From Deltaproteobacteria bacterium (GTDB taxonomy: Bacteria; Desulfobacterota; GWC2-55-46), in the NCBI GenBank assembly GCA_015075075.1, contig JABTVA010000002.1, positions 129,985 to 193,984 on the forward strand: DNA of 64,000 nucleotides. Reading direction: 5' to 3'. The position numbers and the translations under genes were made by a program. This document shows positions 20,385 to 40,036 of the stretch, piece by piece (the stretch's first letter is position 1; each line of letters opens with the position of its first letter). The notes beneath the pieces are model-generated. The model saw nothing but the letters and a program-made list of their open reading frames with translations, had not been told where the DNA came from and ran no database searches.

Positions 20385-21706
20385 TGTCGCGAAATTTCAC
20401 TAAGCTCGCAGGCCTGATAAAAGACAAGAAGGCCCGCGTAGGGATAATCGGGCTGGGCTACGTGGGGCTCCCGATAGTGCTCCGCTTCTGCGACGTGGGG
20501 TACAGGGTCACCGGCTTCGACGTCGACCCTGAAAAGGTCCGGCTTTTGAGAAAAGGCAAGTCTTATATAAAGCACATCCCTTCGGGCCTCATATCCAGGC
20601 TGGTCAAGGGCAGGAATCCCTCCTTCAAGGCCACGACCGACATGTCGGAGCTTGCCGGGATGGACGCCGTCATAATATGCGTGCCCACCCCGCTTTCGGA
20701 CAAGCGCGAGCCCGACCTCTCATATGTCGAATCCACTGGCGCCGAAATCGCGAAATTTCTCAGGCCGGGCACTCTCGTCTCCCTCGAATCGACTACCTAT
20801 CCGGGGACTACCAGCGAACTCCTCCTTCCCATGCTCGAGGCCGGCGGGCTAAGGGCGGGCAAGGACTTTTTCCTCGTCTTCTCCCCCGAAAGGGAGGACC
20901 CAGGCAGGGTGGACTTCAGCATAAAGACCACCCCCAAGATAGTCGGCGGCATAACCGCGGAATGCTCGGAGTTAGGCTCCGCCCTGTACTCAAAGATAGT
21001 CGACAGGGTCGTGCCCGTCTCCTCCACCCAGGTCGCGGAGATGACGAAGCTCCTCGAGAACATCTACAGGAGCGTCAATATAGCGATGGTGAACGAACTC
21101 AAGATGCTCTGCCACAGGATGGATATCAACATCTGGGAGGTAATAGAGGCTTCCAAGACCAAACCCTTCGGCTTCCAGGCCTTTTACCCGGGCCCGGGCC
21201 TGGGCGGGCACTGCATACCCATAGACCCGTTCTATCTCACCTGGAAGGCCAGGGAGTACGACTTCTCGACCAGGTTCATAGAGCTTGCCGGGGAGATTAA
21301 CTCCAACATGCCCTATTACGTAGTCACCAGGGTAATGGAGGCGCTTAACGAGCGCGGCAAGAGCCTCAAGGGCTCGAAAATTCTCGTCCTCGGCATCGCA
21401 TACAAGAAGGACGTGGACGACTTGAGGGAATCGCCGTCTTTAGAGCTCATCAGGATACTCAGGGAGAAAGGGGCGGAGGTCGACTATAACGACCCGTACC
21501 TCCCGCTGGCGATCAGCCACAGAAGGCACTTCAGGATGCGTTCTACCCCGCTTACGGAGGCGAATATCGGCAAGTATGACTGCGTGCTCATCGCGACCGA
21601 CCATTCGTGCTACGATTACAAGTGGATAGCGAAAAACAGCAGGCTCGTGGTTGATACCAGAAATGCTACGGCCGGCCTTAAGAGGCGGAATATCGTAAAG
21701 GCCTAG
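20384..21706 (+). CDS. UDP-N-acetylglucosamine 6-dehydrogenase-type nucleotide-sugar dehydrogenase
   Basis: 440 residues of the UDP-Glc/GDP-Man dehydrogenase family, closest in pattern to WbpA/VipA enzymes that oxidise UDP-GlcNAc to the uronic acid. NAD binds at GIIGLGYVGLPIV. The catalytic Cys is in GPGLGGHCIPIDPFYL, and the C-terminal domain begins with GSKILVLGIAYKKDVDDLRE. Its ATG overlaps the prsR stop by one base, so expression of the precursor enzyme is coupled to the regulator. With the epimerase downstream it would supply an acidic N-acetylated sugar, a plausible substrate for the amidotransferase at 7529 (inference). Confidence 0.88.
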   Translation: MSRNFTKLAGLIKDKKARVGIIGLGYVGLPIVLRFCDVGYRVTGFDVDPEKVRLLRKGKSYIKHIPSGLISRLVKGRNPSFKATTDMSELAGMDAVIICVPTPLSDKREPDLSYVESTGAEIAKFLRPGTLVSLESTTYPGTTSELLLPMLEAGGLRAGKDFFLVFSPEREDPGRVDFSIKTTPKIVGGITAECSELGSALYSKIVDRVVPVSSTQVAEMTKLLENIYRSVNIAMVNELKMLCHRMDINIWEVIEASKTKPFGFQAFYPGPGLGGHCIPIDPFYLTWKAREYDFSTRFIELAGEINSNMPYYVVTRVMEALNERGKSLKGSKILVLGIAYKKDVDDLRESPSLELIRILREKGAEVDYNDPYLPLAISHRRHFRMRSTPLTEANIGKYDCVLIATDHSCYDYKWIAKNSRLVVDTRNATAGLKRRNIVKA

Positions 21707-21707
21707 G

Positions 21708-21855
21708 AGGGTGTTGAAAAGCACCTTGTTAAGCAATCCACGGATGGACTGCCAAATTGCGAAGACTATCCAAGTCGGGCAATGTAAGGCTTGGTCGTAT
21801 TCATTCCGGCCAAGCCGTGGTTGAAAAAGTCCAGGAAGGACTTTTTCAACATCCT
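21708..21855. repeat. Dispersed palindromic repeat R1, copy A
   Basis: 148-bp element bounded by AGG-G-TGTTGAAAA and its inverted form ending TTTTTCAACATCCT. It is the reverse complement of copies at 31306-31454 and 32983-33133. Inside are sequences able to form hairpins: GGACTTTTTCAAC with its mate, and the CTTGGTCG/CGGCCAAG pair. It starts 2 bp after the dehydrogenase stop and ends 23 bp before the epimerase start, so it sits inside a transcript. No transposase frame is present, as expected of a MITE-like or REP-like element. Confidence 0.85.
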
Positions 21856-21878
21856 GATAGGCCTGGAAAGGGACTTTG

Positions 21879-29432: not shown

Positions 29433-29969
29433 CTACGTACCAGGCTTCTTCCTGACATGAGAAAGTCTCATATCGACGTCATAAAGGTCCGGGGAGTCGA
29501 ACCTCGTCTTCATCGAGAACTCCCTCGTTACGACGAGCGCGCCCCCCCTCTCAAATTGATGCAGGAGGTTCACCAGCTGGTTCAGGCCCACCCTTTCGAG
29601 TTTGACCTCGACCGCCGCTTCGGTGTAGCCGAGTGTTTCTTTCTCTCCGGCCTGCCTTATGGAGACTATCGAAGACCTTGCCCCGACCGCGTCAGCGGCG
29701 CGCTCTATAACGGCTATGGCCGGCTGGTCTCCTTTTGCATGGGCCTTTCTCAAGGCCTCCTCTATCCCGGCCTTCTTTTCGAGATACGCGGCCTCGATCG
29801 CCCGGAAGCTCGAAAGCTCCACCTTCTTCAAGGCCGCCTGCCTCTTTACTGCCGAATACCTCCAGATAGTGGCAAGCGCGCCGCCCAATGCGGCCACGAG
29901 GACCAGCACCGCGAGCGCGAGAGCGGGCCTTTGCCTGAGCCGCATGACTATATCCGCCGTCCTTGTCAT
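29433..29969 (-). CDS. gspM: Type II secretion inner-membrane protein GspM
   Basis: 178 residues: short cytoplasmic N-terminus, one membrane helix (ALAVLVLVAALGGALATIW), a coiled-coil stretch rich in Lys, Glu and Ala, and a small ferredoxin-like periplasmic domain (VGLNQLVNLLHQFERGGALV). It partners GspL in the inner-membrane platform of the secretion machine. The start overlaps the gspL stop by four bases (ATGA type). It is the last gene of the block; no gspN, gspC or gspD follows. Confidence 0.82.
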   Translation of the reverse strand: MTRTADIVMRLRQRPALALAVLVLVAALGGALATIWRYSAVKRQAALKKVELSSFRAIEAAYLEKKAGIEEALRKAHAKGDQPAIAVIERAADAVGARSSIVSIRQAGEKETLGYTEAAVEVKLERVGLNQLVNLLHQFERGGALVVTREFSMKTRFDSPDLYDVDMRLSHVRKKPGT

Positions 29970-31288
29970 TCGACGCCCTCCTTCAGGGAGAGTGTGAAGA
30001 CGGCCCCTCCGCCGGCCTTTGCCTTGAGGTCCGTAACGAGCACCTCATTGAACGCGCCGCTCCTTGAGAGCGCGTCCTTAAGCCCGTTCGCCGCCTCGAA
30101 CGAGGCCGCCTCCCCCTTTGCGCTTATCCTCTCCTCACCGACATGGAGCTCGTTTATGACTATCCCCGCCTCCTTCGGCGCAGTGGCGGCGAGCTTCCTC
30201 ATTACCTCAGCGGGCCGCACGCCCCCGAGGACGCGGGCCTCGTCGTGAAGGAGCTTCATTTTTACCTCCATCTGGTAGAGCTCGTCAGGTGCGCCGCCCT
30301 CCCCGGGGAAAAGGCCCAGATACGCCGACCTGAGGGCGCTTCTGTATGAAGCGAGCTCGTCCGACGCGGCAAGGTATCTCATATAGAGGTCCGATATTCC
30401 CAGAATGGAAATGAGCGCGCACAGGAAAATGGTGGTCTTGAGCTTCTTTCTTGCGGCGCTTTTCTCCTTCGTGTATTCGAATTCCCCGCGCCTTAAGTCC
30501 GGGGCAGACCCCGGAAGCCGCCTCCCCCTCACCTTCAAAGAGAGGGCGTAGATTGCCGCCATCTCCTCCATGCCTTCGGGCAGGTTTCCTTCCCGTATTT
30601 CGATATCGGGCATCGCTGGCGCTGTCGCGCCAAGGCCGAACCCTATCGGATAGGCCCTGTCTATCGTAACCCCGCCGGAGCTCAATAGCTCGATGTTGAG
30701 CCTCAGGGAATCGGCCCCGTTATAGGCATTGAGAAAAACGAGCCTGCCCCCTTCGGATACGGAAAAAAACTCGGGGGTCACAAGGGCGGCGTACCCGCCC
30801 TCCTTCGAGAGCCTTTCCACGAGGGCCGGGGCCGCAAAGGCCGCGGGGCCGGCCCAGCGCGGGTCCAGGCCAAGGCCGTTGAGCTCGGAAAGGCACTCCC
30901 TTAGAAACGCCTTCTCGATACAAACGGCAATGGCCCGACCATTTCCGAGCGGCAGGTTGTCGAATACGAAATCCTCCGCATCCGAGGGCAGAGAGCCCGC
31001 AAGCTCGAAGGGCAGTATCCCGTTTATCTTCTCGCGGTCCTCGAGCGGTACATCTACGACCCGAATGCTTAAGAGCGCGGGGGAAAAGCTCAGGAAGAGC
31101 GCCTCCTTCAAGGCCCCTCCACCAGGGCCTCCCTGGAGGGCCGATACAAGGCGCGAGAGCGCGTCTTTCCTGCCGCCCGCCTGGGGAAAATGCTCGGCAG
31201 CCGAGGCTGCCCTCTCGCCAGGCGCGTTAAATACGGAGCCCCTTACAGCTCCGGGCGCGATCTCGATTATCGCGAACTGCTCTTTCAT
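29966..31288 (-). CDS. gspL: Type II secretion protein GspL
   Basis: 440 residues. The cytoplasmic actin-like domain occupies about 1-300 (FAIIEIAPGAVRGSVF, GILPFELAGSLPSDAEDFVF). One membrane helix lies near 315-330 (TTIFLCALISILGISDLYM), then a periplasmic ferredoxin-like domain near 375-440. GspL recruits the GspE ATPase and anchors GspM. The start at 31288 lies 18 bp downstream of repeat R1 copy B, so the repeat forms the gspK-gspL spacer and would be part of the message. Confidence 0.84.
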   Translation of the reverse strand: MKEQFAIIEIAPGAVRGSVFNAPGERAASAAEHFPQAGGRKDALSRLVSALQGGPGGGALKEALFLSFSPALLSIRVVDVPLEDREKINGILPFELAGSLPSDAEDFVFDNLPLGNGRAIAVCIEKAFLRECLSELNGLGLDPRWAGPAAFAAPALVERLSKEGGYAALVTPEFFSVSEGGRLVFLNAYNGADSLRLNIELLSSGGVTIDRAYPIGFGLGATAPAMPDIEIREGNLPEGMEEMAAIYALSLKVRGRRLPGSAPDLRRGEFEYTKEKSAARKKLKTTIFLCALISILGISDLYMRYLAASDELASYRSALRSAYLGLFPGEGGAPDELYQMEVKMKLLHDEARVLGGVRPAEVMRKLAATAPKEAGIVINELHVGEERISAKGEAASFEAANGLKDALSRSGAFNEVLVTDLKAKAGGGAVFTLSLKEGVE

Positions 31289-31305
31289 CTATGGCCCTCT
31301 CTATC

Positions 31306-31454
31306 AGGTGTTGAAAAAGCCATTCCTGGGCTTTTTCAACCACGGCTTGGCCGGAATGAATACGACCAAGCCTCACAAATTGCTCGACCTGGATAGTCTT
31401 CGCAATTCGGCAATCCATCCGCGGATTGCCTGGCAGGGTGTTTTTCAATACCCT
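31306..31454. repeat. Dispersed palindromic repeat R1, copy B
   Basis: 149 bp between gspK and gspL. Ends: AGGTGTTGAAAAAG at 31306 and TTTTTCAATACCCT at 31454. Same orientation as copy C and opposite to copy A. Internal hairpin GTTGAAAAAGCC with GGCTTTTTCAAC. It abuts the gspK stop within 3 bp. Confidence 0.86.
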
Positions 31455-31456
31455 CT

Positions 31457-32410
31457 CTAAAGCCTTCTCCAATAGAGGACGCCCTTCCCTGCCTCGAAGA
31501 CCGCCTCTATCTCCCGTGAGACCTCGCCTGATGCGGCGTTCGAATGGACGCTGAATATGCGGCTCTCCACCCTTATGCCGTCCATGAGCCCGTAGCCTGC
31601 ATCCTCGAAACCAGGCACCTTCATTATCTCGGACCTGTCCCTGAAGGGCCTCTCCATCCTCCGCGTTATGAGGTTCGAGGCGAGCTCTTCTGTCATCTCT
31701 TCCGAAAGGGCGAGGAGCACCTCCATTGTGGCGGTATTCACGTTCACCAGCCCGTCAGTGTTATAGGGCGAGATAAAGGGCTTTAGAGTTGCAAGCACCT
31801 CGGGCGTGAAGCCCCTTATCATCAGGAGCTCTCCCAGCGAGCCAGGATACCCGTTCCGAGCCTCATAGGGCGATTTGAGCCTCAAATAGTGCTCCGGGCC
31901 CTCTGCCCCGTATGCCCTCGGCTGGTCGTCGCCGTCGATCCAGTCGGCCAGGGCGTCCTCAAGGCCCTCGCGGCCCTTTATACGCAGCCCTTCAAGGAGC
32001 CTTGATAATACCGGGTGCGTCCTGCCGTTTTCGACCCCGTTGGGGTAGACGGTCCGTAACGAGGCCTTGCCAAGCTCGTCATGCACCCTCACGACCACCG
32101 ACGCCCCCCCTTCCGACGCGGTGAAGATTAGCCCGTCCTTATCAATCGCGATATTAGGCCCGGACTTGAGCATCTCTTTAACGGCCTCCTGGGCGAGCTC
32201 GACACCCTTGCCGGCCAGGAGAGCGGCCTTCTGCCCGTCCGCGAAATTCGAGGCCCTGGAAGTGGAGACGTGCACCCGGTAGACGAACTCCGTCACGATA
32301 GCCGCGAGGACCGCGAGAATAACGAGCGCGGCTATAAGGACAAAGCCGCCCTCCCCCGAACTCCTCAGCCCGCTCAAGGCTACGCCCCTCTCCTTCGAGT
32401 GGGCCCTCAT
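31457..32410 (-). CDS. gspK: Type II secretion minor pseudopilin GspK
   Basis: 317 residues. The prepilin signal is GEGGFVLIAALVILAVLAAI: the cleavage Gly-Phe pair, with a hydrophobic helix, but Val rather than Glu near +5, normal for GspK. The large alpha-helical domain inserted in GspK proteins is visible (ALADWIDGDDQPRAYGAE, RSPYEARNGYPGSLGELLMI-like segment). It caps the pseudopilus tip with GspI and GspJ. Its start overlaps the gspJ stop by four bases. Confidence 0.84.
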   Translation of the reverse strand: MRAHSKERGVALSGLRSSGEGGFVLIAALVILAVLAAIVTEFVYRVHVSTSRASNFADGQKAALLAGKGVELAQEAVKEMLKSGPNIAIDKDGLIFTASEGGASVVVRVHDELGKASLRTVYPNGVENGRTHPVLSRLLEGLRIKGREGLEDALADWIDGDDQPRAYGAEGPEHYLRLKSPYEARNGYPGSLGELLMIRGFTPEVLATLKPFISPYNTDGLVNVNTATMEVLLALSEEMTEELASNLITRRMERPFRDRSEIMKVPGFEDAGYGLMDGIRVESRIFSVHSNAASGEVSREIEAVFEAGKGVLYWRRL

Positions 32411-33021
32411 CTTATCATGGTCCTCGAAAGCGCCGTAAATTCCCTTCCGTCCCTTAAGACCACCCTGGCCCTTACGGCCAGGGGGAGCTTCTTTTCAAGG
32501 GACGCCTCCCATGCGTTGGCCCAGGCCGTGCCGTTACTGTAGCTCAACTCGAAGGCCTCGATGCCGGAGAGCGCCTCCGAGACGAACCTTTCGCCTATAT
32601 GGGGGTTCCACGTCTCCCTGTAAAGTGTAAGCCCCCCGTCTTCATGCTTCGCGAAGTAGCCTATGGCCATGAGGTCCGTGGAAGGGGCTCCCTCCCGCTG
32701 GGGCTCCGCTGAATACGATGTAAACTCCAGGGCCGAAGCCCCTGCCCTCGTCTTTCCGGAAAAGGCGGTACGGGGCTCTTCGGGGCTGAAGTACGCGGAG
32801 TTGACCTCGCCCGAAAGCCTATCGAGGAACATCCCGGCCTCCAGGTCCCTCTCGAGCGAACCACCGGTCCTTTCTCCCGCGCCGAGCACGCTCATGAGGA
32901 CGCCGTAAAACGAAAGGAGCGCAATAGAGCCGACCGCGAGCGCAACGAGCACCTCTATGAACGTAAACCCGCTATTCCTAACAGGATGTTGAAAAAGTCC
33001 TTCCTGGACTTTTTCAACCAA
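32407..33021 (-). CDS. gspJ: Type II secretion minor pseudopilin GspJ, leader encoded by repeat R1
   Basis: About 205 residues with the prepilin helix SGFTFIEVLVALAVGSIALL (Phe +1, Glu +5) and a GspJ C-terminal domain (FAKHEDGGLTLYRETWNPHI). The native leader is missing: the codons before the NSGF cleavage site run directly into repeat R1 copy C. The nearest in-frame start is TTG 33021, giving an 18-residue leader read from the repeat; GTG 33054 and TTG 33084 are alternatives. Whether this leader is translated and cut by PilD is untested. No gspI, gspH or gspG lies upstream. Confidence 0.75.
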   Translation of the reverse strand: MVEKVQEGLFQHPVRNSGFTFIEVLVALAVGSIALLSFYGVLMSVLGAGERTGGSLERDLEAGMFLDRLSGEVNSAYFSPEEPRTAFSGKTRAGASALEFTSYSAEPQREGAPSTDLMAIGYFAKHEDGGLTLYRETWNPHIGERFVSEALSGIEAFELSYSNGTAWANAWEASLEKKLPLAVRARVVLRDGREFTALSRTMIR

Positions 33022-33133
33022 GGCTTGGCCGGATTCATTCCGGCCAAGCCTCACAAATTTGCCCGACTTGGATAGTCTTCGCAATTTGGCAATCCGTCCG
33101 TGGATTGCCTGGCAGGGTGTTTTTCAACAACCT
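32983..33133. repeat. Dispersed palindromic repeat R1, copy C
   Basis: 151 bp, ends AGGATGTTGAAAAAG and TTTTTCAACAACCT. Shows the family structure most clearly, as three consecutive hairpins: a 13-bp stem (GTTGAAAAAGTCC), a 12-bp stem (AGGCTTGGCCGG) and an 8-bp stem (GGCAATCC). It overlaps the 5' end of gspJ. Confidence 0.87.
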
Positions 33134-33711
33134 GCTGGCTGCGGGGCGGCTGGTGAACTGATGTTTAGCGCTGTTCGACTCTATCTCTCGTGGATTTTAT
33201 AATACCTTTTTAAACAGGGCAACAAAAACCGGGCTTGTTTTCACAGAAATCGTATCTGGCGAATATCAGCATTATCTCCCGCCCCGGTTCTCTCCCGGCA
33301 AACCCGAATCATTTTTTTACGTGCTCCCTCTATTCAATTCAGCTCACAGATGGATTCGAGATGAATGTGTTCGGGCCGGTGGCCAGGCATTTCTTTATTT
33401 CAGATAAGTATCGGACAGGTTACTTGTTAAAAGATATCTTTCGACGCGGCTTTGGATGAAAAGGAATGTACTTCGGGAGGACGGAGGAGAAGACAAAAAA
33501 TAGTCTGGTGTAATAAACTACCCCGCCGCAAGCAGCGTGGTATCTACAAACCTCCCCTCCCTTGATGGGAGGGAATAAGAGGGGAGGGTGAAATTTCTTT
33601 ACCCCATCACAGCTTCCCCCATCAAGGGGAAGAGTCAAAAAACGCGCCGCAAGCGGTAGGAATTCAACCCCTAAGGATTAAAAGAATCTAAATGAGCTTT
33701 GTCTTTTTTAA
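33134..33711. other. Gene-poor stretch containing repeat R3
   Basis: 578 bp without a convincing gene. It is AT-richer than its surroundings. Short open frames on both strands have no recognisable domains and no ribosome-binding sites. Its only clear structure is repeat R3 copy 1 at 33521-33660. This is where gspG-I would be expected if the secretion operon were complete. Confidence 0.7.
33521..33660. repeat. Dispersed palindromic repeat R3, copy 1
   Basis: About 140 bp built from runs such as CCTCCCCTCCCTTGATGGG and their complements. Its reverse complement aligns with 39910-40036, sharing TTTCACCCTCCCCTCTTAT in the centre. Flanked by CCGCCGCAAGC-like ends. Confidence 0.8.
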
Positions 33712-34095
33712 TTATCCTTTTTCGTACTTTTCGATCTCTTCATCGCTCAGACCGAAATAATGGCCTATCTCGTGGAGGACGGTCAGGCGTATCTCCTCTA
33801 CAAGCTCCTCTTCTGTGGAGCAGATGGCCTCGATGTTACTCTTGTAAAGCACGATCCTTTCCGGAAGCTGGCCGGACGCGCCGCCGCACCACTCCTGCTC
33901 AAAACGGGATATGCCGTGAAAAAGTCCTAAAAGCTCTTCGCGCAGCACCCCCGCGCTCTCTGCGTCCTCTTCGGAAGGGTAGTCCTCCACGACCACGACG
34001 ACGTTTTCCATTCGCTTCCTGAACTCGTCGGGGAGGCTATCGAGCACGTGAGCTGCAATCGTCCTGAAGCCAGTCTCGTTTACAAAGTAAGCCAT
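33712..34095 (-). CDS. Minimal zincin-like metallopeptidase (PF06262 type)
   Basis: 127 residues. The C-terminal HExxH zinc motif is VLHEIGHYFGLSDEEIEKYE, with the third ligand Asp/Glu following as in this family. The N-terminal part is the usual small alpha/beta fold (VLDSLPDEFRKRMENVVVVV). These single-domain proteins are widespread and of unknown substrate. The start at 34095 keeps MAYFVNETGF; an ATG at 34104 is the alternative. Monocistronic, with about 50 bp to the upstream lipoprotein gene. Confidence 0.8.
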   Translation of the reverse strand: MAYFVNETGFRTIAAHVLDSLPDEFRKRMENVVVVVEDYPSEEDAESAGVLREELLGLFHGISRFEQEWCGGASGQLPERIVLYKSNIEAICSTEEELVEEIRLTVLHEIGHYFGLSDEEIEKYEKG

Positions 34096-34147
34096 GACGT
34101 TCAACTTTAATATTCTTCGGCGCGGAATTCAAGCCGCACGAGTTGCT

Positions 34148-39909: not shown

Positions 39910-40036
39910 CACTCCTCCCCCTTGATGGGGGAGGCCGGGAGAGGGTGAGGATATTTCACCCTCCCCTCTTATCCCCTCCCGCCCTGATTAAATTTGGGGA
40001 GGGGAGGTCTAAGATAACCCGCAGTTTGCGGTGGTG
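39910..40036. repeat. Dispersed palindromic repeat R3, copy 2
   Basis: About 127 bp between ubiX and the degP-like gene, reverse complement of 33521-33660. Starts CTCCTCCCCCTTGATGGGG; centre TTTCACCCTCCCCTCTTAT. It ends four bases from the protease stop, so it may also shape the 3' end of that message. Confidence 0.8.

Follow-up and report, generated by a model that had tools for sequence, protein, structure and literature searches.

Rickettsia palindromic elements (RPE) are palindromic MITEs of ~150 bp that carry an open frame and are found inserted in frame in protein genes (PMC10969869, review). The enterobacterial RU/ERIC repeats are likewise small and MITE-like, with a TA duplication, stem-loops and open frames, and have been described as fused to genes (Delihas 2007, PMC2759123). 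Prepilin leaders, which are removed on the cytoplasmic side, vary in length (PMC10191384), long ones being known from type IVb pilins and from PilE1 and PilE2 of Streptococcus sanguinis, in which 18 aa are called long (PMC4832360).

The stretch of DNA analysed here (64,000 nucleotides, hereafter the window; G000:C12:129985-193984, strand +) belongs to a draft genome, G000, of 2.6 Mb in 39 contigs that is 93% complete. The explanation that we favour, and consider probable as a whole, is that a MITE-like element was inserted into the leader of the pseudopilin gene gspJ, that it is read through from the native ATG and cleaved off with the leader, and that the join seen in the window is artefactual. 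The gspJ case is like that of the RPE in that a ~150-bp palindromic MITE is inserted in frame, a resemblance at the level of function only, but unlike the RPE, which occur in many unrelated genes, it concerns one gene among 69 copies examined and lies in a leader that is expected to be removed by cleavage. With RU/ERIC the gspJ element shares its nature of a small MITE-like repeat, the TA duplication, the stem-loops and the open frame, whereas the insert lies within the leader, downstream of the native start codon, and several RU/ERIC cases extend a C-terminus or form an N-terminus. Like the long prepilin leaders, that of gspJ is a hydrophilic class III signal peptide with Gly at its end; unlike them, it is predicted to comprise 68 residues, 52 of which come from a mobile element. 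A limited literature search turned up neither a prepilin leader this long nor one that a mobile element had supplied. In-frame insertion of a MITE is already known from RPE and RU/ERIC, and what is new here is another lineage and, as an unusual location, a class III leader that can be cleaved off.

The T2SS genes of the window and the repeat family

The ORF at 32407-33084 of the window (minus strand) encodes a minor pseudopilin of the GspJ type (Pfam T2SSJ, 3e-12; N_methyl, 1.4e-7), with a class III signal peptide and a T2SSJ domain. Mature gspJ (FTFIEVLVAL...) extends over 32407-32967 on the minus strand; its match to TIGR01711 (NCBIfam) is below the cutoff, and orthologues are present in G002, a sister species of the same genus available as one contig, and in the further relatives compared, G005 and G004. 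On the same strand lie gspK (31457-32410; NF037980, E 1.1e-48, above the cutoff), gspL (29966-31288; TIGR01709, above the cutoff) and a gspM-like gene (29433-29969) assigned from a weak NF040576 match and its position. The gene order in G002 is gspH-I-J-K-L-M, with gspI and gspK as the neighbours of gspJ.

Upstream of the NSG|F cleavage site, the gspJ frame of the window enters a dispersed repeat (match 32977-33137), as a previous reading of the window from its sequence alone had observed under the name R1 copy C. This repeat is a ~153-bp MITE-like element, the copy next to gspJ occupying 32982-33134 on the minus strand, and it has 67 matches in G000, about 35 of them near full length. A second copy (31301-31454, minus strand) lies at the TAG stop of gspK and separates this gene from gspL; the site is occupied in G002 and G005 and free in G004. 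A third copy is found at 21705-21861. The copies are short and dispersed (mostly 142-158 bp), with 42 matches in G002 and 19 in G005, and the element was detected in all six genus genomes examined. Its termini read CAGGGTGTTGAAAAAC...TTTTTCAACATCCTG and contain the terminal inverted repeats CAGGGTGTTGAAAAA / TTTTTCAACATCCTG; the flanks are TTAG/TTAG, ATAG/ATAG or CTAT/ATAG. Besides these properties, the element has a target site duplication, with a length between TA and TTAG, and empty sites in relatives, as expected of a MITE. Since the left-end trinucleotide and the inner arm of the first hairpin change together (TAGCAGG..CCTGCTA, TATCAGG..CCTGATA), the true duplication is perhaps just TA. 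No autonomous partner element was seen in a pattern search and a check of one locus.

Regarding target choice, 31 of the 69 copies from G000, G002 and G005 (45%) are positioned exactly at the stop codon of a long frame, compared to 31-33% of YTAR sites generally. Specific targeting of stop codons was rejected, as this mild excess is largely explained by the YTAR target preference. Among the same 69 copies no other convincing in-frame insertion was found, the open frames there resembling antisense or non-gene frames. A lone left-end hairpin of the element was also observed at a matching sequence in G000 (C3:60126-60176), where it adjoins heterodisulfide-reductase-like genes, and in G002 (C1:736923-736973); it may be the remnant of a decayed element or an independent terminator.

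The gspI/gspJ insertion site in the sister genomes

The insertion, the reading frame across it and the empty sites are all directly observed in the genomes compared. In G002 the locus is uninterrupted (gspH-gspI-element-gspJ-gspK-element-gspL-gspM), with gspI at 9644-9303 and the element and gspJ contiguous with it. The native ATG of gspJ is embedded in the 3' end of gspI and follows the ribosome-binding site AAGGA; the frame that it opens reads MNPRALRSIPFI-SRVLKNTLLGNPRMDCQIAKTIQVEQFVRLGRIHSGQAVVEKVQEGFFQHPV-RNSG|FTLIEV, with 68 residues before the cleavage site. The MITE and its duplication account for 156 bp of this frame, that is 52 inserted codons devoid of stops, and the gene is left intact, as in insertions of the RPE type. 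The same genes are found without the element in G005 and G004, where the empty sites are TTTTATCAGGAATAGCGGG and TTTTATCGGGAATAGCGGG and the 16-aa leaders MRPKALRSIPFIRNSG and MRPKVLRSIPFIGNSG, respectively. In the window, the leftover native leader codons RNSG (32968-32979, minus strand) precede the prepilin cleavage site at the same position as in G002 and G005, G004 having GNSG. They are joined by TTAG (CTAA on the plus strand, 32978-32981), the copy of the target duplication on the gspJ side, of which at least TA is duplicated; TTAG stands on both sides in G002, and the corresponding empty site of G005 is TTTTATCAGGAATAG.

In G000, gspI is carried by another contig, C21 (5,293 bp), the minus strand of which contains gspH, gspI, an element right at the gspI stop codon and then a ydcF-like gene. 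The native gspJ start, again with AAGGA, is present there (gspI, ATG-MRPRALRSIPFI, then the MITE). The sequence-only reading had concluded from the window that the native start is gone; it is present on contig C21 of G000, and in G002 it is contiguous with gspJ and in frame through the repeat. The two half-junctions of G000, gspI..TTAG|CAGG on C21 and CCTG|TTAGGAATAGCGGG in the window, fall at the same base and therefore correspond to the insertion of G002. The C21 element copy and the gspI/gspJ copy of G002 show 97.4% identity, gap-free. In both carriers the target copies flanking the element are TTAG, and gspI therefore probably already ended in TAG before the insertion. The comparison with close relatives that had been suggested does reveal the insertion boundary (element in G002, empty in G005 and G004), but no loss of the native leader start. 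When more carriers were sought in genome contigs, the only close relative was UBA5799 (the same contig as G004, without the insertion), the remaining matches of the scan being distant GspJ-like proteins.

These comparisons suggest that a non-autonomous element of ~153 bp was inserted in the common ancestor of the G000 species and G002, its target probably being the TAG stop codon of gspI (TTAG, of which TA or more was duplicated). As the two genes overlap, with the gspJ start nested in the end of gspI, such an insertion would be located inside the gspJ leader, and because the insert is a whole number of stop-free codons, gspJ would still be readable from its own ATG into RNSG|FTFIE. Provided that the native start is used, the leader is predicted to have grown from 16 to 68 residues. 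The lengthened leader has a net charge of +6 (7 R and 3 K vs 1 D and 3 E) and contains no hydrophobic 19-residue window (maximum 0.46 vs 2.41 in the pilin helix); being hydrophilic and basic, it should remain cytoplasmic. Prepilin peptidase should then cut after the same glycine, and the insertion was presumably tolerated because removal of the leader would leave mature GspJ unchanged. The earlier suggestion that a non-coding palindromic repeat had become a leader can be kept in part: the repeat contributes 52 in-frame codons to the GspJ leader (in G002, and in G000 by the half-junctions), but it supplied no new start, the native ATG being kept upstream. The locus would thus illustrate a route by which a mobile repeat enters a gene for secretion and does no evident damage: an element with a TA/YTAR target hits a stop codon, the gene overlap makes of this an in-frame leader insert, and the cleavable leader discards the product. 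It also offers a natural test of the tolerable length of a prepilin leader.

The chimeric join in the window

Where the repeat meets the DNA beyond 33137, gspJ is not in its native surroundings: the junction is a chimeric join. Positions 33135-33711 are the intergenic flank of a zincin-like metallopeptidase gene (33712-34104, minus strand), not that of gspI, and are conserved in G005 as far as the edge of the element; in G002, G005 and G004 the metallopeptidase gene is apart from gspJ. The DNA downstream of this gene (window 33135-33711) differs in all four sister genomes, with an antiporter in G005 and signalling kinases in G002 and G004, making this a variable junction zone. By its diagnostic bases the C21 element matches the gspI/gspJ copy of G002, yet the flank to its right belongs to ydcF. 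The window element is over most of its length another copy, frameshifted relative to the G002 gspI/gspJ copy, yet its right flank is gspJ, and its last ~43 bp, at the gspJ end, are indistinguishable from the gspI/gspJ copy. Both copy switches fall inside these ~43 bp, an identical tract (TGGTTGAAAAAGTCCAGGAAGGACTTTTTCAACATCCTGTTAG). In G002 the gsp locus and the hydrogenase-element-ydcF locus lie far from each other and from the metallopeptidase gene, as three separate loci, and the hydrogenase flank of ydcF is missing from the G000 assembly. The join, we infer, most likely arose because the incomplete draft was wrongly assembled at the repeat, and not by genuine recombination; the gspI side would thus have been swapped for an unrelated flank. 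Joins mediated by repeats in draft genomes can in this way mimic gene innovations.

The alternative that survives best, although we consider it rather unlikely, is a real rearrangement in which recombination between MITE copies cut gspJKLM off from gspI and the operon promoter; gspJ would then lack its native start and probably be silent. The element sequence is intact at the joins on both contigs, and the zone downstream of the metallopeptidase gene would be a natural breakpoint, since it varies among all four sister genomes. As the gspI and ydcF elements are oppositely oriented in G002, a single inversion could moreover yield C21. However, two successive exchanges would be needed, both within the same 43-bp tract, and their reciprocal partners (the hydrogenase flank and the left flank of locus L144) are absent from the assembly. 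C21 is, besides, a 5.3-kb contig bounded by repeats, and the window copy has no matching target duplications (CCAG vs TTAG).

It should also be noted that a second dispersed inverted repeat family flanks the region (window 33567-33632 and 39915-39980), and that the end of the C21 contig is a repeat too. A third flank swap specific to G000 was observed at C1:253745-253903 (L073), where flanks are joined that are separate loci in G002. The G002 order is backed by G004 and G005 for the right-flank locus and by G004 for the left-flank locus, and the 318-kb contig C1 of G000 may be chimeric at L073 too.

Constraint on gspJ and on the inserted segment

The dN/dS of mature gspJ is 0.21 between the two carriers (G000 and G002) and 0.20 between the non-carriers, and that of gspI is 0.08 between the carriers. 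As mature gspJ is still constrained, the G002-type gene is not decaying, and the view that gspJ is silenced, the other outcome considered by the sequence-only reading, would hold only if the window junction were real. The inserted segment itself differs between G000 and G002 by 4 substitutions and 0 indels. In seven other orthologous pairs of element copies, the substitutions number 13-27 and the indels 2-8; by a Poisson estimate, so few indels have a probability of about 0.006 and so few substitutions one of about 8e-5. The lack of indels is consistent with selection on the frame. The dS of the leader/element segment is 0.02 vs 0.2-0.3 in gspI/gspJ, and this slow divergence goes beyond protein-level selection alone because the synonymous positions are also nearly unchanged. 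That the MITE-coded leader is actively kept and not merely tolerated, with a role for example in setting GspJ translation or in membrane targeting, is a tentative idea that we think unlikely; the low divergence would equally follow from gene conversion or from a parallel insertion of recent date.

As RNA, the region forms hairpins of very high stability (z -9.6), and an effect on expression is therefore possible, through less translation or through transcription termination. It is nevertheless unlikely that the hairpins lower or abolish gspJ expression and that the T2SS is being lost in both species, given that mature GspJ and GspI are constrained between the carriers and that the frame has stayed intact and indel-free since the species split. 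Less likely still is translation from a start within the repeat, the original proposal by which the repeat would give both start and leader: TTG 33084, GTG 33054 and TTG 33021 are indeed the sole in-frame gspJ starts of the window contig, all of them inside the repeat, and the intact G002 copy also holds an in-frame ATG (MDCQIAK), but none of the three is preceded by a convincing Shine-Dalgarno sequence, the window copy is mostly a different, frameshifted one, and the native ATG with its AAGGA is retained in G002 and on C21.
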